Assembly (NCBI GenBank): GCA_023268155.1 | Contig: JALNKM010000002.1 | Span: 186,001-250,000 of the forward strand | Length of the DNA stretch: 64,000 bases | Direction of reading: 5' to 3' | Source: Candidatus Geocrenenecus huangii | GTDB lineage: Archaea > Thermoproteota > Nitrososphaeria_A > Caldarchaeales > Wolframiiraptoraceae | Shown here: piece after piece, positions 5,110 through 13,608 of the stretch | Position numbering within the stretch: the first letter of the stretch is position 1 | Layout: each line of letters begins with the position of its first letter | Position numbers and translations under genes: made by a program | Notes under the pieces: generated by a model | What the model was told of the DNA's origin: nothing | The model's input: only the letters and a program-made list of their open reading frames with translations | The model's database searches: none

Positions 5110-6132
5110 CTAAAAGCGTTTTAGGTCTAGGATTCTTGCATAAACGTTTAGGTATTTTTTCAACACAGTATTCCATTCATACTGTGTTAGTATCTTATTA
5201 TACGCTTTATCGATCATCTTATCTACTGGGATGGTTTTCGTCAAAACATTTCTAGCCGCTTTAGCTATTTCTCCAGCATCCGGCTCTATTAGAATACCTT
5301 CTACGTTTTCTTGGATAATTTCTATGTTCCCTCCTACCTTACTAGCTATCACGGGTATTTTTAAGGCCATGGCCTCTAGTAGGAACGTGCTTATCCCCTC
5401 TTGTCTAGAGGGTAAAATTGCCGCATCAGAGCCTGCGAGGACTCTCAACGCTCTCCACCTAGGTAGAGGTCCAAGATATGTGAGTAGCTTCTTTTCATGA
5501 GCTTTCTCGAAAAATCTCCTTAGCGGCCCATCTCCAGCAATAACCAATCCTCTAAGACCGTATCTAGCCGCAGTCTCGATCAGTAAGTCTACACCCTTCT
5601 CATAAGATAACCTGCCTAGATAGGTTATTTGAGGACTGCATATTCTCTCAGAGTCTTTAGGTAGATCTAGCAAGTCTATAGCGTTAGGTATGTGCTCAAC
5701 CTTTAACCCGAGGCCCTCATAGTATTTCAAGGCCTCCATAGATACAGTTGTTATAGCATCTAGCTTCCTCAGAAACTTTTTTTCAACGACTTCAGCCATG
5801 TACCCTAGCTGCTGACCGTGAAGTAGCCGTATCTGCTTGGAGTACAATCCATGGAGAGTCAAGACCTTCCCGCCACTAGAAGATAGGATAGCTGGAAGAG
5901 ATGGTAGATTATGTCCATGAACGATATCGTATTCCTTCGTGATGGTCTTCAAGTATGAGAGGAGCCCATACAATGGATTAGCTAAATTCTTCAAGCTGGG
6001 TATCTTCAAGTATTCAGCGGAAAGAATATCCACCACGAAGCCCTTGTCCCGAAGTTTCCTAGCAAGCGTTCTAACATGATGAGCTATCCCGCCAACTCCA
6101 GAGATCCTAGGAGACGATAAAAGGATCTTCAA
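5110..6132 (-). CDS. Glycosyltransferase family 4
   Basis: A 340-residue GT-B fold enzyme. The N-terminal half begins with GVGGIAHHVRTLARKL, the acceptor-side glycine-rich loop of GT4 enzymes. The C-terminal half carries PSRQEGISTFLLEAMALKIP, the E(x7)E nucleotide-sugar motif. It transfers a sugar from an activated donor, probably to a glycan or lipid carrier at the inner face of the membrane; donor and acceptor cannot be read from the sequence. Its end lies close to the archaellin gene on the same strand (about 80 bases apart), and archaellins are usually N-glycosylated, so a link is possible but not shown. The start is TTG. Confidence 0.85.
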   Translation of the reverse strand: MKILLSSPRISGVGGIAHHVRTLARKLRDKGFVVDILSAEYLKIPSLKNLANPLYGLLSYLKTITKEYDIVHGHNLPSLPAILSSSGGKVLTLHGLYSKQIRLLHGQQLGYMAEVVEKKFLRKLDAITTVSMEALKYYEGLGLKVEHIPNAIDLLDLPKDSERICSPQITYLGRLSYEKGVDLLIETAARYGLRGLVIAGDGPLRRFFEKAHEKKLLTYLGPLPRWRALRVLAGSDAAILPSRQEGISTFLLEAMALKIPVIASKVGGNIEIIQENVEGILIEPDAGEIAKAARNVLTKTIPVDKMIDKAYNKILTQYEWNTVLKKYLNVYARILDLKRF

Positions 6133-6211
6133 TTTAGTTCCAACTCTTTAATATGTTTAGCAGGTAAAAAATATAGGGGATTAGAGTAGACGTGGATTAA
6201 TCTGGCTTATC

Positions 6212-6784
6212 TTATGCTAGGTCCATTACAGGATCGATTGATGGAGGTATCCTTCTCTCAACTTTTAGTACTGCGCCTACCAGAGGCTTGACTTCTATTA
6301 CGAATACATCATTAGGCTTTAGCTGGACGTTATCGATACCTCCGTAGATCTGATCAACATGTATTACGACCTTAAATGATTCACCATACTCTATCAGGGA
6401 ATCTCCATCACCCTGTATTTCCGAGACTTCTACTTGTACTCCATGGGTAAGTTTGTCGACGACCTTATATGGATCCATGTAAGATATTATCAAAGTATTG
6501 TTACTGAGATCTACAGGTCTCTTTCCAACCGCAGTCTTGACATATAATGTAATATTGGACACCTTCATATTATTATCACTCGCTTTTTCGCCAGTAGCTA
6601 TCACCGAGCCTGCTAGCTCTATGCTTGAAGTAGCTTCTTCTAATCCAGCTTTTAGAACTTCACCACTTTTTTGAGTAGATGCAAATCCCAGATTCAATAC
6701 TGCAAAAGCAAATGCAGCAGCAACGATAACGAATGCTATTAGAATGATGGCTGTCTCTAGGCCTGTTAATCCACGTCTACTCAT
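6212..6784 (-). CDS. arlB: Archaellin (archaellum filament subunit)
   Basis: The protein begins MSRRGLTGLETAIILIAFVI, a class III signal peptide: a short basic leader, cleavage after RRG, then the hydrophobic helix that packs the filament core. The rest is a beta-rich outer domain of about 150 residues, so at roughly 190 residues it is typical for an archaellin. I chose the ATG at 6784 because GGTAAGGAG precedes it; an upstream in-frame ATG (6823) would add 13 residues that spoil the leader. FlaK/PibD-type peptidase would process it. The gene is single and diverges from the motor operon at 6927, with a TATA box at about 6843-6852. This separate, divergent filament gene allows independent dosage of filament and motor. 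Confidence 0.9.
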   Translation of the reverse strand: MSRRGLTGLETAIILIAFVIVAAAFAFAVLNLGFASTQKSGEVLKAGLEEATSSIELAGSVIATGEKASDNNMKVSNITLYVKTAVGKRPVDLSNNTLIISYMDPYKVVDKLTHGVQVEVSEIQGDGDSLIEYGESFKVVIHVDQIYGGIDNVQLKPNDVFVIEVKPLVGAVLKVERRIPPSIDPVMDLA

Positions 6785-6842
6785 CTTTCTCCTTACCTGA
6801 GTTTTCCACCACATTTTTCTCAATAATATTTAGATAATACTG

Positions 6843-6923
6843 ATATATAAATGTTATCTTACAAAAATAGCTCAAGAAAAATATATAAATATCTTTTTAG
6901 TATTATTTTGAGGGGATTGTGAG
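6843..6923. promoter_or_regulatory. Divergent archaellum promoter region
   Basis: Between arlB and the motor operon there are two TATA boxes. AAATATATAAATAT at about 6879-6892 faces right, with a start site expected near 6912, close to the GAGGGGA and GTGAG ribosome-binding elements before the ATG at 6927. TTTATATA (minus strand, 6843-6852) faces left toward arlB, giving a leader of about 35 bases. The two boxes are only about 35 bases apart, so factors binding between them could affect both units. Confidence 0.6.
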
Positions 6924-6926
6924 ATT

Positions 6927-7460
6927 ATGAGCGTATTCAATTCGGATAAAGAATGTAATGGTTTCTCATTCACAGGCATTAATGAAGTGATAGGACTGAT
7001 ATTAGACGTTGTTAAAAGTAGCTTGGGAATGGGTCTGACGAACGTTCTGCTTTATAGCTTTGGCAGGTCTATCGGTGAAGATTTATTCAATCTACATCCA
7101 TGTTTAAAGTCTGGAGGAGCTTCTCTTGAAGAAGCTAATGAGTATCTTGTCAATTGTTTAAAGATACATAACCTTGTTAAGGATACCTTTATACTTAAAG
7201 CATTTAGACCGGACGGTCGTCTAGAATTAGTCTGTAGAATCAATAGTAAAGAATTTGAGAAATTCTCTAAAGAAGACTCAGACTTCAAAACTTCTCTCGT
7301 ATACTTTTTCTATAGAGGAATACTTTCAAGATATTATGAGCTGTTCTTTAAAATGCCGTTAGAAATTAAGAAGGTTTCAACGTGCCTAGATGAAAATGAG
7401 AACACAATATGTGAATTTGTTCTTATAACTCCTCTGGAGGAAAGAGTGGATGAGCCGTGA
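6927..7460 (+). CDS. V4R-domain-like protein opening the archaellum operon
   Basis: A soluble 177-residue protein not found in textbook archaellum operons. The C-terminal half resembles a V4R (4-vinyl reductase) small-molecule-binding domain. FFYRGILSRYYELFF (about 126-140) corresponds to its 'GfleG' helix, and STCLDENENTICEFVLI (about 150-166) to the paired-cysteine beta hairpin. The N-terminal half has a glycine pattern (GMGLTNVLLYSFGRSIGEDLF) also seen in V4R proteins. V4R domains bind ligands or act as sensors in many archaea. Being first in the operon and overlapping the next gene by 11 bases, it is probably co-translated with the motor parts. I infer a regulatory or sensory role in motility. 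The domain call is by eye only. Confidence 0.6.
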   Translation: MSVFNSDKECNGFSFTGINEVIGLILDVVKSSLGMGLTNVLLYSFGRSIGEDLFNLHPCLKSGGASLEEANEYLVNCLKIHNLVKDTFILKAFRPDGRLELVCRINSKEFEKFSKEDSDFKTSLVYFFYRGILSRYYELFFKMPLEIKKVSTCLDENENTICEFVLITPLEERVDEP

Positions 7461-8100
7461 AGAACACAGCTTCCTCGAAAAGAGGCTTAGAGAACTTGAA
7501 GATGAAGTTAGAAGGATGAAGGGACCTCTAGAGACTACACTCATGGACGTAAGACAACTCATATCGGAGCTGGAAAACCCCTTCAACTACGTTGCGAAGA
7601 TAATAGACCTTGAAAAATTTCAGCCTAGGCAAGCATCTCAAGAAGTAGAAAACGTAAAGAAGAGTAGTAAAAAAGAAGTCTTCCAGGAACCTCTCCAAGA
7701 TTTCGAGGATGTAGGTAGAGAAAGCATAGGATCGAGATTCGAAGAACCTCATTTAGGTCAAGTAAACCTACTAAATGTTCTAGCATGCGGTTCGATACTG
7801 ATAAAGCTGCTAGGTCCGGAACATGTATTAAAGTTTCTCAACTCTAGGATAGCCGGTCAACTTGTACCTAGGAGACTGATATATTCTCTGATAGACGTAG
7901 TGGATTTTCTACTCAAATATTCTGGTGGAGAAGTATATGTTCGTTCTCCGAGCCGGTTATCTCTAGATTCTACAGTTGCAGCAGCATACATTATAAGCCT
8001 GCTAGCTAATAATAGAGTAGACGATAGGTTCTTCATACTACTAATGTTTGGTTTGAAGGAGCCTCTCGGAGAATTTAAGAGTAGAGAGGGTGTGCCGTGA
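7450..8100 (+). CDS. ArlC/D/E-like archaellum cytosolic-ring protein
   Basis: A 216-residue protein. The N-terminus is a charged coiled coil followed by LISELENPFNYV (about 37-48), a motif shared by euryarchaeal ArlC and ArlD/E proteins. A linker leads to a helical C-terminal domain (about 98-150, LLNVLACGSILIKLLGPEHV onwards) resembling the ArlD/E domain. These proteins form a ring around the motor and couple it to the chemotaxis adaptor CheF. One protein here seems to combine the roles of several. It replaces the crenarchaeal ArlX at this position, and no ArlX-type membrane helix is seen. It overlaps the preceding gene. Confidence 0.65.
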   Translation: MSREEHSFLEKRLRELEDEVRRMKGPLETTLMDVRQLISELENPFNYVAKIIDLEKFQPRQASQEVENVKKSSKKEVFQEPLQDFEDVGRESIGSRFEEPHLGQVNLLNVLACGSILIKLLGPEHVLKFLNSRIAGQLVPRRLIYSLIDVVDFLLKYSGGEVYVRSPSRLSLDSTVAAAYIISLLANNRVDDRFFILLMFGLKEPLGEFKSREGVP

Positions 8101-8101
8101 C

Positions 8102-8590
8102 ATGCCTGTAGGGTCATTAATGACGGAGGTAATTCTTGCAATAGTATCGATCGTCGTTGCATCAACCATAGCAAGCGTCTACATCTCAAACATGAATCAA
8201 GCAGCAGACCTTCAGAAACTTCAACTAGCGAAAATCAAAGAAGAAATAGAATACGATTGTAGAATAGTCTTCGCTTATTCATCTATTTCTTCAGATATCG
8301 TGAAGCTGTGGGTAAAGAATACTGGAGCAAAACAGGTATCACCTCAACTAATACAATCTTCAGAGATACTCCTAATATCATATAATAGTGTAAAGTATCT
8401 TCTCCACGAAGATCCATCGTCTGGCTGGACATACAGACTGCTGAATGACGTAGACGATGATGGTAGATGGGATCCTGCTGAGACACTAGAGATTACATCA
8501 AATCTAGACGAAGCACTTACTGAAGGAGATTACAATGTCAAGCTAGTACTGTTCAATGGAAAAACCTGTGAATACTTTTTCTCAGTGTAG
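8102..8590 (+). CDS. arlG: Archaellum stator protein ArlG
   Basis: One N-terminal membrane helix (MTEVILAIVSIVVASTIASVYI, here from about residue 7) is followed by a beta-sandwich domain of about 120 residues, the layout of ArlG/ArlF. ArlG forms a periplasmic filament capped by ArlF that anchors the motor to the S-layer. The gene order ArlG-ArlF-ArlH is the crenarchaeal one. I chose the ATG at 8102, one base after the previous stop, with GAGGG about ten bases upstream; the GTG at 8090 is possible. The pair of aspartate-rich stretches (NDVDDDGRWDPAE) could bind calcium and recurs in shortened form in ArlF. Confidence 0.72.
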   Translation: MPVGSLMTEVILAIVSIVVASTIASVYISNMNQAADLQKLQLAKIKEEIEYDCRIVFAYSSISSDIVKLWVKNTGAKQVSPQLIQSSEILLISYNSVKYLLHEDPSSGWTYRLLNDVDDDGRWDPAETLEITSNLDEALTEGDYNVKLVLFNGKTCEYFFSV

Positions 8591-8601
8591 GGGGTTATGG
8601 A

Positions 8602-9138
8602 ATGTCTAGTCTTGGAAGTCTCTCCGTGTTCGTAATCTTTACGCTAACTACGCTCATATTAGTTGGATACATGTTAAACAGTCTGTCCAACAATACATCG
8701 CTTTTCATATACTATAGCCAGTACTTAGAGAAGAGCTCACTAGGAAATAGGGGAGAAATAGAGATCAGAGAGTTAGAGATTTCTCCGGACAACACGTCGA
8801 TATCATTAAAACTTGTGAATAAATGTATTAAACCTCTACATGTAACAGATTTTCCTCTTCTCGACGTAATCTTTCTATATAGATCAACCGATAACAAGAC
8901 TAGAGTAAAATGGCTTACATATAATCCAAGTAGAAGCTTAGATGAGGGTTGGCTCCCACTAAGAATAGAGTACGGTAATCATGCGGAATTGGTTAACCCA
9001 GTCTCAGGAGATTTTAAATCAGGATTATGGGATCCAGGCGAAGCTCTACTAATAGAAGCATGGGTAAGAAAAGATGAACCAGTTGTTGGAGAGTCAGTCT
9101 TGATAGTGCCTTGCATCGAAGGAGGTGGGAGAAACTGA
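8602..9138 (+). CDS. arlF: Archaellum stator protein ArlF
   Basis: A 178-residue protein with one N-terminal membrane helix (about 7-27) and an extracytoplasmic beta domain. The N-terminus (SSLGSLSVFVIFTLTTLILVGY) and position between ArlG and ArlH fit ArlF, which binds S-layer protein and stabilises the ArlG filament. Assignment of F versus G rests on helix pattern and order rather than on a decisive motif. It begins 11 bases after arlG with GGGGG upstream. Confidence 0.68.
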   Translation: MSSLGSLSVFVIFTLTTLILVGYMLNSLSNNTSLFIYYSQYLEKSSLGNRGEIEIRELEISPDNTSISLKLVNKCIKPLHVTDFPLLDVIFLYRSTDNKTRVKWLTYNPSRSLDEGWLPLRIEYGNHAELVNPVSGDFKSGLWDPGEALLIEAWVRKDEPVVGESVLIVPCIEGGGRN

Positions 9139-9173
9139 GCGAGGAATCTGGTAAATCTAGATTTGTAAAAGCG

Positions 9174-9854
9174 ATGAACCCTGAGCTAGATAGAAAGATC
9201 GGGGAACTTAGAATCCCCTTCTTATGCTTGATCGAGGGTCCAAATGATAGTGGGAAAAGTGTCTTGGCACAACAATATGTTTACGGGGCTCTTAGGTGTG
9301 GTTGCAGAACACTTTTTATAACTACTGAATCTGGGGTTAGGGGTCTTCTAAAATCGATGGAAGAGATTAGCCTATCGGTAAAAGAATACTACTTGAAGGG
9401 TGTATTACAGATCTACGAATTACATGTTAAAGACTTGGAATGGGATGAACTCCTCTCATCAAGGTTCCTAGAGCTGATATTGAACACTATAAAACTTAGA
9501 GAATACTTCGACCTATACGTTATCGACTCTCTAACATACCTGGTCACTCATGCTAAAGAAGAAGATATTCTCAACTTCTTCACAGAGGCTAGAAACATAA
9601 TAGAGGAAAAGGATAAGTCAATGATAGTAACCGTTCACCCATATGCTTTCAGCGAAGAAATGCTTGTAAGAATGAGAAGCATCTCGGACGTCCATTTCAT
9701 ACTACAGGTCAAAGAGATAGGCGACAGGATAGTCAAGATACTTCAAGTCCCAAAATTAAAAGGTGCAGTGAAGCAGACATCGATAACCTTGAGCTTCGAT
9801 GTTGATCCTGCATTCGGGATAAAGGTACTCCCCTTCTCTAGAGCTAAAGCGTGA
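9174..9854 (+). CDS. arlH: Archaellum motor regulator ArlH (RecA-fold ATP-binding protein)
   Basis: A KaiC-like protein with the Walker A motif GPNDSGKS (residues 22-29) and a Walker B strand in LYVIDSLTYL. ArlH binds ATP without hydrolysing it well and docks on ArlI; its phosphorylation state controls assembly. I chose the ATG at 9174 because it gives the usual short N-terminus (MNPELDRKIGELRIPFLCLI). The start is uncertain: a strong GGAGGTG at 9120-9126 lies far upstream of it, inside any TTG start at 9111, and is ideally spaced only for an in-frame CTG at 9135, next to the arlF stop. Confidence 0.85.
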   Translation: MNPELDRKIGELRIPFLCLIEGPNDSGKSVLAQQYVYGALRCGCRTLFITTESGVRGLLKSMEEISLSVKEYYLKGVLQIYELHVKDLEWDELLSSRFLELILNTIKLREYFDLYVIDSLTYLVTHAKEEDILNFFTEARNIIEEKDKSMIVTVHPYAFSEEMLVRMRSISDVHFILQVKEIGDRIVKILQVPKLKGAVKQTSITLSFDVDPAFGIKVLPFSRAKA

Positions 9855-9858
9855 GAGG

Positions 9859-11580
9859 ATGAGTCAAATAGTCAAGACCATGGAGGAAAGGCTTGCCAAG
9901 AATTTTAAGGATTCTCTTTCAAAGAATCCTCATCTAGCAAGATACCTAGATAATCTAGCTAGGAAGGGCGAGGAGCTTCCAGAATATTTTGAGCAGCTCA
10001 GCCGAGAGATGAGGTACTCTAAAGAAGTAAACATTTTGTACCCTGTAGGAGATCCAATATTCATTCATATAAAATCTGTGAAGCCGGGAGAGAGACCATC
10101 ATATATTGTCATCCAGCCAACTATCAATGAGAAGATATGCAGGATAATGGAGATCGTCGAAGAATTAATAATCTCCAAGATAGATGAGAGTGTAGACTTC
10201 AAAACTGTGGAAGAACATGAAGAAGTCTTGAAGAAGATTCTAAAGAATACGATCAAGATAGATGGAAGCCTTAAGACAGGAGATTATAGAATAGAGAAGA
10301 AGAGCGGCTACAAAAGAATATACGTAAACAACGAGACGTACAGGTCTTTAGAATATCAATTGATAATGGATAAAATAAGGATGGGAATACTTGAACCTTT
10401 TATTAGAGATGAGTATATCGAGGACGTTAGCTGTGACGGAGTTGGCCCAATTTTCGTAGAGCATAAGATTTTTGGAAGCTGTCAATCTAATATAGTGTTT
10501 AGAGATGAGTATGAGTTAGACAATTTTGTTAGAAAGCTCTCGGAGAGAACTGGCAGACCTGTAACTTTTAGAAACCCTATCGTCGATGCATCCCTTCCGG
10601 ATGGCTCTAGGATTAACATAGTATTCGGGAAAGATATAAGCATGAAGGGCACGAACTTTACTATCAGGAAATTTAGTGATAAACCTATAAGTATAATCCA
10701 GATAATCAAGTACGGCGGGATAAGTGCTCTAGGCGCAGCTTACCTATGGATTCTTCTCGAAAACAATATGAGTATCTGGTTTTGCGGGGAAACAGCTAGC
10801 GGTAAGACAACGCTCCTACGAGCAGTATGTGTGTTCATCAATCCCCACTATAAGATAATAAGCATAGAAGATACGCCTGAGATAATAGTTCCCCACGATA
10901 ACTGGGTGAGAGAGGTAACAAGACAATCCGAGTCGGGGAGCTCAAGCATAGAATTATTCGATTTATTGAAGGCAGCTCTCAGGCAGAGGCCAAACTATAT
11001 TATAGTTGGAGAGGTTAGAGGGAAAGAAGCGAGCGTGGCTTTCCAGGCGATGCAGACGGGTGCTCCTGTACTTGCTACATTCCATGCTGGAAGTGTTGAG
11101 AAGTTAATCCAAAGACTTTCAGGCTCTCCTATAGAAATCCCGAAAACATACATAGACATACTTAACGCAGTAGTCGTCCAAAGTGCTGTAAGAATACCTA
11201 GCACGGGGAAAGTAGAGAGGAGGGTATTATCGATAAATGAGATAGTTGGATACGACCCAGAAGATAATAGATTTGATTATATTGAGTTGTTCAGTTGGCA
11301 GCCTAGTACGGATCTACATGAATTTAGAGGTGAGGGTAGTAGCCATCTTCTAGAGAATAAGATAGCCGTAATGAAGGGGATCGGTAGAAGAGACTTGAAG
11401 AAGATCTATGTAGACCTAGAGATGAGGGCTGAGCTTCTCTCCACTCTTGCTAGATTGAACATATTAGACTATTTCCATATATGGAGAGTCATCAAGTATA
11501 CTTACAATAGGAGTGTTGAGGAGACGCTGGAGCGAATCAGTCTAGGAGAAAAAATCTGGGAGATCGAGGAATATGATTAA
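9859..11580 (+). CDS. arlI: Archaellum motor ATPase ArlI
   Basis: A 573-residue type II/IV secretion-superfamily ATPase. The Walker A motif is GETASGKT (310-317), the Asp box RQRPNYIIVGEVRG (375-388) holds the Walker B glutamate, and a His box follows (PVLATFHAGS). The N-terminal 200 residues form the archaeal-specific domain that contacts ArlJ. It is a hexamer that drives both assembly and rotation. The gene starts four bases after arlH, with GAGAGGATG-type spacing, and overlaps arlJ by eight bases, so the two are coupled. Confidence 0.93.
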   Translation: MSQIVKTMEERLAKNFKDSLSKNPHLARYLDNLARKGEELPEYFEQLSREMRYSKEVNILYPVGDPIFIHIKSVKPGERPSYIVIQPTINEKICRIMEIVEELIISKIDESVDFKTVEEHEEVLKKILKNTIKIDGSLKTGDYRIEKKSGYKRIYVNNETYRSLEYQLIMDKIRMGILEPFIRDEYIEDVSCDGVGPIFVEHKIFGSCQSNIVFRDEYELDNFVRKLSERTGRPVTFRNPIVDASLPDGSRINIVFGKDISMKGTNFTIRKFSDKPISIIQIIKYGGISALGAAYLWILLENNMSIWFCGETASGKTTLLRAVCVFINPHYKIISIEDTPEIIVPHDNWVREVTRQSESGSSSIELFDLLKAALRQRPNYIIVGEVRGKEASVAFQAMQTGAPVLATFHAGSVEKLIQRLSGSPIEIPKTYIDILNAVVVQSAVRIPSTGKVERRVLSINEIVGYDPEDNRFDYIELFSWQPSTDLHEFRGEGSSHLLENKIAVMKGIGRRDLKKIYVDLEMRAELLSTLARLNILDYFHIWRVIKYTYNRSVEETLERISLGEKIWEIEEYD

Positions 11581-13120
11581 ACGATTATTGAAGACGGTAA
11601 AGGCCTTCATAGAGGATTTTGAACAATCTGCGAAGCTTAGAGGCTTCTACTCGATAATGATAATCCACCTATACTCTCTCTCGACTGTCACCTCATCGCC
11701 TAGAGATGTTATAAACATAGCGGGAAGATCAAGATACGCCCTCGGAGACTTAACAGCAATCTTTAGCAAGATATCACTATTAGTGAATAGGTGGAACTAT
11801 ACACTGCATAAAGCAATCCAGCTAGTTTCCTCAACGATTAGAGAAGATAATATCAAGAAATTCCTCCAGAGACTTTCATACTCTTTGAATATGGGGGTAG
11901 ACTTAGAGAACTTTATGAAGATCGAGTATGAGAAGCTTCTAGAAACAAGTGCTGCAGAATTCGATAGAGCGGTAGAAAGAGTAAAAAGGTATATTGAAGC
12001 ATACTCTGCTCTACTAACGTCTGCAACTTTTTTGAGCGTCTCAATGCTTTTGACCTCAATGATATACGGTGTCGAAGTCGACAAGGTATTAACCTATTCT
12101 GTACTTATGATAGCCGGGACGCTGGCCACCATAATATTCTTGATGGCTAGGGCTTTACCGCCTGACCCTATACTGCACACCGAAGAGCTTGCCCCACCCT
12201 CTCTAAAGATGATCCATAAATTTAATTCACTAATCTTTATTCCATGTATCGCTTTCTCGATAATTTTATTCATCCTGCTAAACAAGAGCATGAGCTCAGA
12301 AAACCCCATTATCAATAATCTAACACCGATACCTCTACCCATCATCACTGCAGGTATACCGCTTCTCCTAGTAGGGAAGATTGGGAGAAAATGGATAAAA
12401 CAAGTAGAGAAGATAGATGAAAGCTACCCATCCTTCGTGAAGTCTCTAGGAGACGCCATCTCGGTCACAAACTCCCTGAAAGCGTCCTCGGTCATTCTGG
12501 AGGTGAATGATTACGGAGCGTTGAACAAGCTGATTAGACGTCTACGTAGAAGGCTTGAAATGGGATTCGAGCAGAACAAGTCTCTAAACATTCTAGGACT
12601 GGAAAGCCTGAGCAACCTCATCTTAAAAACTATTAGAATAATAGCGGATAGTATATTCTACGGAGCTAGATCTGAAGTCTACGCCAAATCTGTGTACGAC
12701 TACGTGATTAGACAGTTGATTGATAGAAAGAAGAGAAGACAGGTTGCCGGCACTCTTAGAGGTCTAGCTATACCTTTACAGGCCACGCTAGTCGCAGTAG
12801 CTGCGTTAATAGCAACTCTAGCGAAAATACTTTACAGGTTTAGCCTACTAATACAAGACTGGTTTCCAGTAATAGCTATGATTAGCCCCTCTCAGATCTC
12901 TACATACTTCTACACGATAATACTAGTGACAGCTTTATCAAGCTCAATAGCACTCTACATAGTTGAAGGAGACTCGAAGTTCACACCAACCTATTGCCTC
13001 GGGTTACTATTAACTCTGAGCGGAGTGATCTACTACCTAGTCTCGCTGGCATCCGATACACTATTCCGTCTCTTCATAAGGTTTGAAGAAGAAATGATAG
13101 AGATAACAGGGGGACTATAA
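11573..13120 (+). CDS. arlJ: Archaellum membrane platform ArlJ
   Basis: A 515-residue polytopic membrane protein of the type II secretion F family. Two similar halves each have a cytoplasmic helical, basic segment (about 60-150 and 270-385) followed by membrane helices. I count about seven to nine hydrophobic segments (for example SALLTSATFLSVSMLLTSMI, then TLATIIFLMARAL, and three near the C-terminus). It anchors ArlI and the filament base in the membrane. The stop overlaps the next ATG (TAATG). Confidence 0.88.
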   Translation: MIKRLLKTVKAFIEDFEQSAKLRGFYSIMIIHLYSLSTVTSSPRDVINIAGRSRYALGDLTAIFSKISLLVNRWNYTLHKAIQLVSSTIREDNIKKFLQRLSYSLNMGVDLENFMKIEYEKLLETSAAEFDRAVERVKRYIEAYSALLTSATFLSVSMLLTSMIYGVEVDKVLTYSVLMIAGTLATIIFLMARALPPDPILHTEELAPPSLKMIHKFNSLIFIPCIAFSIILFILLNKSMSSENPIINNLTPIPLPIITAGIPLLLVGKIGRKWIKQVEKIDESYPSFVKSLGDAISVTNSLKASSVILEVNDYGALNKLIRRLRRRLEMGFEQNKSLNILGLESLSNLILKTIRIIADSIFYGARSEVYAKSVYDYVIRQLIDRKKRRQVAGTLRGLAIPLQATLVAVAALIATLAKILYRFSLLIQDWFPVIAMISPSQISTYFYTIILVTALSSSIALYIVEGDSKFTPTYCLGLLLTLSGVIYYLVSLASDTLFRLFIRFEEEMIEITGGL

Positions 13121-13608
13121 TGTCTCCAGAACCTATCTCTCCTTCAACGTGGATAATGCTGGCGTTGGTGATAACTATAGCCTACGTCGTCGCGCTGCTT
13201 CTATTAAGAGAAAAGAAAACGGTGAGACCCCCAATGACACATCGTCCAAGAGAATCTAGTCCACCGCGTAGAGAAACCTTAGAAGATGTAAGTATTGTGT
13301 CAGAAGAGATAATCGAAGAACCGGCTAAGAAGATTAACCAAAAGATGGAAGACAACTTAATGGGCTCTCCACGTAGGGAGATCCTAGATGAAAAAACTGA
13401 GGAAAAGAATGAACAAGAACACATGGAAGGGCAAGATAACGTTTTGGAGGAAGACGAGAAACTGGAAGATCTACTCAGAGAACCGGAGATTGAGTTGGTT
13501 AACGGAGAAGATGAAGACGTCAAGTTGAGGGAATTCGTAGAGTCTGCTGAAGAATTAAGGAATCAACTTTATAGACTTAAAAAACTGCTGAAGAGCGAAG
13601 ATAGCTAG
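13120..13608 (+). CDS. Unknown acidic membrane-anchored protein ending the archaellum operon
   Basis: A 162-residue protein of no family I recognise. One N-terminal membrane helix (WIMLALVITIAYVVALLLL, about 11-29) is followed by about 130 mostly charged residues, rich in glutamate and lysine, with low-complexity character and short heptad-like stretches near the end (LRNQLYRLKKLL). Topology would put the acidic tail in the cytoplasm. It is translated with arlJ through a TAATG overlap, so it probably belongs to the motor complex. A motor-ring docking site or stator helper are guesses; nothing in the sequence decides. Confidence 0.6.
   Translation: MSPEPISPSTWIMLALVITIAYVVALLLLREKKTVRPPMTHRPRESSPPRRETLEDVSIVSEEIIEEPAKKINQKMEDNLMGSPRREILDEKTEEKNEQEHMEGQDNVLEEDEKLEDLLREPEIELVNGEDEDVKLREFVESAEELRNQLYRLKKLLKSEDS

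Follow-up and report, generated by a model that had tools for sequence, protein, structure and literature searches.

What does a small gene of the V4R type do at the head of an archaellum operon? The locus lies in a 64,000-nt stretch of contig JALNKM010000002.1 (hereafter the window) from Candidatus Geocrenenecus huangii, a member of the order Caldarchaeales, the former Aigarchaeota (excerpt of PMC9246946). Its closest named relative in the same genus is Candidatus Geocrenenecus arthurdayi (85% for ArlI), and the family also includes Wolframiiraptor. The original prediction described the gene as a V4R-type, sensor-like protein with a paired-cysteine hairpin, possibly linking a redox or aromatic signal to motor assembly. 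The features of the locus are collected in Table 1.

Table 1. Features of the archaellum locus, with positions in the window.
Feature	Position	Strand	Basis
Archaellin, divergent	6212..6823	-	PF01917, 102 bits
AT-rich stretch upstream of the ATG, with a TATA-like aatatataaa (6880-6889); candidate promoter of the operon	6878..6926	+	read by eye
Stand-alone protein of predicted V4R/Bet3 fold, first gene of archaellum operon	6927..7460	+	ORF; same-slot orthologues; Pfam V4R in orthologues; AF2 model and fold matches
Cysteine pair C153 / C162 of beta hairpin, remnant of V4R zinc site	7383..7412	+	sequence; zinc-quartet column comparison; numbered by hand
ArlC/D/E (ArlX-slot) cytoplasmic ring/switch protein, 216 aa	7450..8100	+	profile A6
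ArlG	8090..8590	+	NF052591, E 1.9e-10, below that model's cut-off
ArlF	8602..9138	+	position and orthology
ArlH	9111..9854	+	NF004723, 269.7 bits, over cut-off
ArlI motor ATPase	9859..11580	+	NF058587, 661 bits, cut-off 550
ArlJ platform protein	11573..13120	+	NF004705, E 7.4e-74, below that model's cut-off
Last operon gene, 162 aa, fast evolving	13120..13608	+	ORF

The placement at the head of the operon was borne out. The V4R gene, an ORF of 177 aa with an ATG start, faces the divergent archaellin gene and is followed by the genes for the ArlCDE-like protein, ArlG, ArlF, ArlH, ArlI and ArlJ. As had been claimed, it runs into the next ORF, with an overlap of 11 nt, and the same two genes overlap in 9/11 operons of the window's family, as judged from predicted ORF coordinates. 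The same slot is filled by orthologues in other genomes, and pairwise dN/dS is low (0.20, 0.09 and 0.16 for three pairs, with dS of 1.2-1.3, near saturation) and similar to that of ArlCDE. Thus, this is not a chance ORF, and the substitution rates indicate that the gene is under purifying selection. The archaellum-linked V4R proteins nevertheless change fast in sequence while retaining key fold features, the window protein being 62% identical to that of the sister species.

Among the 15 orthologues of the 216-aa protein there were weak matches to FlaC_arch, ArlX and Arch_fla_DE, and the profile built from these orthologues (A6) matched an ORF at E<1e-3 in 62/80 named archaellum loci. On these sequence comparisons, the 216-aa neighbour is an ArlC/D/E or ArlX counterpart. 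ArlF family models did not match the protein assigned to ArlF. As in the known arl1/arl2 operons, the G-F-H-I-J order is kept, together with an ArlCDE-type protein (ArlX in Crenarchaeota, ArlCDE in Euryarchaeota). Unlike these, the operon has an extra V4R-type first gene, which is not among the components named in excerpts of PMC8978795 and PMC12488501; an excerpt of a Caldarchaeales genome paper gives FlaB, G, H, I, J and K only (PMC10547907). No association of V4R with the archaellum was reported in the literature searched (titles, abstract openings and passages, with few subscription papers among them). The last gene of the operon encodes a protein with a hydrophobic N-terminus and an otherwise charged sequence, 35% identical between sister species, for which no Pfam family match was obtained.

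The V4R character of the protein is hidden at the level of the single sequence. A PF02830 profile search with the window protein alone returned no V4R match at E up to 1, and comparison with the PDB gave chance matches only. A genome-wide peptide-pattern scan with the same protein matched 30 stretches, none of which was confirmed, and no match was found in a plasmid collection. Detection therefore needs the orthologues. That of Nitrososphaeria archaeon DRTY6_bin.124 (locus L102) scored 35.2 bits, over the Pfam V4R cut-off of 31 bits, and five others (G013, G033, G010, G019 and G029) scored 22.6 to 29.9 bits as whole proteins, the one from G033 reaching 32.3 bits in the genome search against 29.9 in the protein scan. 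The profile of seven zinc-less family members, which alone found no match in the PDB, was linked by hhalign to that of five Pfam-recognised proteins with a probability of 96.8 (E 2.3e-10). The profile check that had been suggested thus gave no match for the window protein itself, and V4R similarity emerged through its orthologues.

Structure prediction points the same way. The AF2 model of the window protein, made from 5 sequences (mean pLDDT 80.7, pTM 0.81), is predicted as a single compact V4R-type fold of helices and a four-stranded antiparallel sheet. Foldseek matched it to TRAPPC3 (E 2.2e-4) and MopR (4e-4), and also to Bet3, BcsD, PoxR and H-NOX; the VIA-align Z values were 13.3 for BcsD, 12.6 for MopR, 12.4 for Trs33 (TRAPP) and 9.4 for MJ1460. 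The predicted V4R-type fold and descent are thereby upheld by orthologue, profile and model matches together, and we take it as shown, on profile and model comparison, that the protein descends from the V4R/Bet3 superfamily. In a tree of V4R proteins, from which the short L061 was left out, 12 archaellum-linked proteins of Caldarchaeales cluster (91/87) while that of L102 is not placed; all 13 form one group with a support of only 49/85.

One could expect the hairpin cysteines to mark a sensor. Instead, while both cysteines are present, their spacing is 8 residues rather than the usual 7, the sister species has kept one of the two (the first is missing), and in other genera the pair is missing. 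Of the zinc ligands C, E, C and C, the window protein retains the hairpin cysteines only. The quartet is full in 6/14 archaellum-linked proteins (G010, G013, G019, G029, G033 and L102) and incomplete in 8/14, that of the window included. Among other V4R proteins from the relatives (n=11, a twelfth, L058, being mis-trimmed and excluded from the counts), E-C-C of the quartet is present in 11/11 and the first cysteine in 6/11. The paired cysteines were therefore rejected as proof of a sensor: they are the remnant of a four-ligand zinc site mostly lost in the window's family, and alone make no argument. Orthologues in genus g4, in family f4 and in L102 show cysteine spacings of 26 and 8, equal to that of C151/C177/C185 in DmpR (excerpt of PMC7264223). 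The same excerpt describes a tryptophan kept by DmpR beside the phenol pocket (PMC7264223), and the window protein has zero tryptophan. Since the zinc site is gone in the window lineage and the DmpR tryptophan is without counterpart, ligand binding may be lost, and the suggested redox or aromatic ligand found no support.

A further difference lies in the helix glycines. Podar et al. describe GxxxG pairs in V4R helices 2 and 5 (excerpt of PMC2253512); the window protein has the helix 2 pair (G46, G50) and the first glycine of helix 5 (G131), with an arginine, R135, at the second position. This second helix-5 glycine is found in 11/11 other V4R proteins versus 1/14 of the archaellum-linked proteins, having been replaced in the other 13/14. 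Taken with the quartet counts, this gives the archaellum-linked group a signature of its own and places the window lineage further from the sensor type.

One of the closest known proteins is the stand-alone V4R protein MJ1460 (PDB 2OSO/2OSD), of the same predicted fold and about the same size, without a fused output domain; the L102 orthologue matches 2OSD in sequence (E 0.0032). Unlike MJ1460, the window protein falls below Pfam detection, has an incomplete zinc quartet and is encoded in an archaellum operon. The domains of the phenol sensors MopR and PoxR are among the top fold matches, but the window protein is unlike these and DmpR in having no AAA+ or DNA-binding part, no complete quartet and no tryptophan. 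It also shares the superfamily fold of Bet3/TRAPPC3 and BcsD, for which sequence support is limited to a TRAPPC3 profile match at E 0.33. Both serve as scaffolds, Bet3-fold subunits in TRAPP and BcsD in cellulose secretion.

The window's family comprises 22 genomes (G000 to G021). The V4R gene stands directly before ArlCDE in 11/11 genomes whose archaellum operon is whole or interrupted only by the assembly (G000, G004, G006, G008, G009, G010, G011, G013, G018, G019 and G020; in G011 the operon is split between two contigs), and a profile search found an archaellum-type V4R in 0/9 archaellum-free genomes (G002, G003, G005, G012, G014 to G017 and G021). In G001 the operon has decayed, with archaellin, V4R gene, ArlCDE and ArlG gone, and in the decayed cluster of G007 the V4R gene is a broken remnant. 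Inside the family, the V4R gene thus strictly co-occurs and co-decays with the archaellum. The proposal that relatives would carry the gene beside archaellum genes therefore held.

Outside the family the picture is patchy. In f4, the gene directly precedes ArlCDE in G033 and G029, the latter with a broken arlI, and the archaellum operons of G024, G027 and G035 are without it; the G031 locus is cut by a contig end. In f2, archaella without the V4R gene were found in G028, G030, G034, G038 and G041, the G022 locus being cut. V4R-like ORFs in G036 and G042 are regarded as tentative: an independent model run on 5,713 ORFs gave E 4.5e-5 for L084 and 1.7e-4 and 0.15 for two ORFs of L085, and strong scores with a model containing these same sequences are circular. 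The weaker L085 ORF of G042 (6131-6721, minus strand; E 0.15) has a hydrophobic N-terminus and is perhaps membrane-anchored. In L102, one 136-aa ORF (5541-5951), which resembles Roadblock/LC7 by eye and has no Pfam match, separates the V4R gene from ArlCDE. V4R models matched in 4/80 named archaellum loci (L095, L096, L097 and L102), with flanks of up to 9 kb. In a phylum sample of 398 genomes, 94 with ArlI over the cut-off, an archaellum-type V4R at E<1e-20 was found in at least 16/398, all Caldarchaeales among the matches listed, and 15/16 of these are in the model itself. A V4R gene of G098 (L094; 36.8 bits), divergent from archaellin, was set apart, as it belongs to a different unit together with a GDPD gene.

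Several side observations came from these loci. The slot before ArlCDE takes other accessory genes too, since a ParA/MinD-like ATPase (PF13614/PF10609/PF01656) directly precedes ArlCDE in other Thermoproteota (L076:6047-6799, minus strand; L106:1609-2376; L104:2712-3467). Decaying archaellum clusters with stops and fragments were seen in L060 (G001), L178 (G007) and L087 (G029), the last with a 391-aa ArlCDE-ArlG read-through ORF beside the broken arlI. In f2, the ArlI frames of L082, L083, L084, L085, L086, L180, L181 and L182 span roughly 940 to 1100 aa, compared with the usual 570 or so, several being cut by the fetched stretch, and the G036 ArlI has a weak match, below cut-off, to the intein-splicing family PF14890. 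This suggests that the f2 motor ATPase may carry inteins.

The chemotaxis genes for CheA, CheW and CheF are scarce in these genomes. CheA, CheW and CheF were found in none of the 22 family genomes, not all of which are complete, and CheA is absent from the L102 genome. CheA with CheW was found in 3/61 relatives and, within the order, in G033 only, on a contig with a second arlI. The absence of CheF says little, because no CheF was found in any of the 61 relatives, CheA-bearing ones included. The V4R gene as a general replacement for chemotaxis was rejected: eight relatives (G024, G027 and G035 of f4; G028, G030, G034, G038 and G041 of f2) have an archaellum without CheA and without the V4R gene, which is thus dispensable for archaella and no general Che substitute. 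G033 has two archaellum ATPases, one in an operon with the V4R gene and the other beside CheA and CheW (contig C71, L088, versus contig C85, L071), which lends itself to comparing two modes of motor control.

In euryarchaea, CheF and CheY act on ArlCDE (excerpt of PMC9680633). Because the V4R protein is stand-alone, its gene overlaps that of ArlCDE and the genomes are CheA-less, it is a reasonable candidate for an input to the ring. Having no DNA-binding or other output domain, it would have to give its output through a partner. We favour, at somewhat less than even confidence, a soluble accessory subunit of the archaellum cytoplasmic module, coupled to ArlCDE, that passes a signal or sets an assembly state. 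The protein would be made together with the ArlCDE-type ring protein of the overlapping gene and would bind it, occupying the position of the euryarchaeal CheF/CheY input. The protein would relay to the ArlCDE/ArlH/ArlI motor a signal from the cytoplasm, the V4R cavity probably receiving a hydrophobic ligand; alternatively, it would set the assembly state of the motor. The more specific version, a dedicated V4R-fold subunit through which a ligand signal from the cytoplasm would reach the ArlCDE switch ring directly, as an input to a rotary motor that is independent of chemotaxis, ancestral in part of Caldarchaeales and lost or modified elsewhere, we regard as rather unlikely.

The fold matches could also be read as those of a structural part. 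BcsD (Z 13.3) and TRAPP (Z 12.4) match as high as the sensor domains, and loss of the full quartet in 8/14 orthologues, like quick sequence divergence with key fold features kept, would suit a ligand-free V4R fold serving as a dimerising or oligomerising block that aids ArlCDE ring formation. Such a scaffold is a possibility we hold tentatively; the gene is missing from several complete-looking archaellum operons of Caldarchaeales, and the sensor-type zinc site is complete in six orthologues. The position of the gene raises another thought, as it opens the operon and adjoins the promoter region of the divergent archaellin gene, and the fusion partners of V4R domains are mostly transcription-regulator or signalling modules (excerpt of PMC2253512). 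A ligand-sensing regulator that controls its own operon at the transcriptional or translational level is nevertheless improbable, because neither the window protein nor the scanned orthologues have a DNA-binding domain and the predicted structure is a single compact fold; a separate partner would have to act for it. Nor does the gene look like a mere passenger, a V4R paralogue that sits in the operon by chance and works elsewhere. Other V4R proteins are indeed common in the same genomes (matches over the cut-off in 39/61 relatives), but presence in all archaellum-bearing and in none of the archaellum-free family genomes, loss or breakage in both decayed loci and the overlap with the ArlCDE gene make this very improbable.

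An excerpt of a review states that the Thaumarchaeota counterpart of ArlX/ArlCDE is yet to be identified (PMC8978795). The V4R gene and the adjoining ArlCDE-like protein offer two concrete candidates, from a related lineage, for motor control without chemotaxis genes. In some heat-loving archaea, the V4R protein may thus have escaped notice as a component of the swimming motor, one controlling it or holding it together where the usual chemotaxis system is missing. If true, a protein of the V4R/Bet3 fold would be tied to an archaeal membrane machine, which bears on the recruitment of this fold for eukaryotic trafficking.
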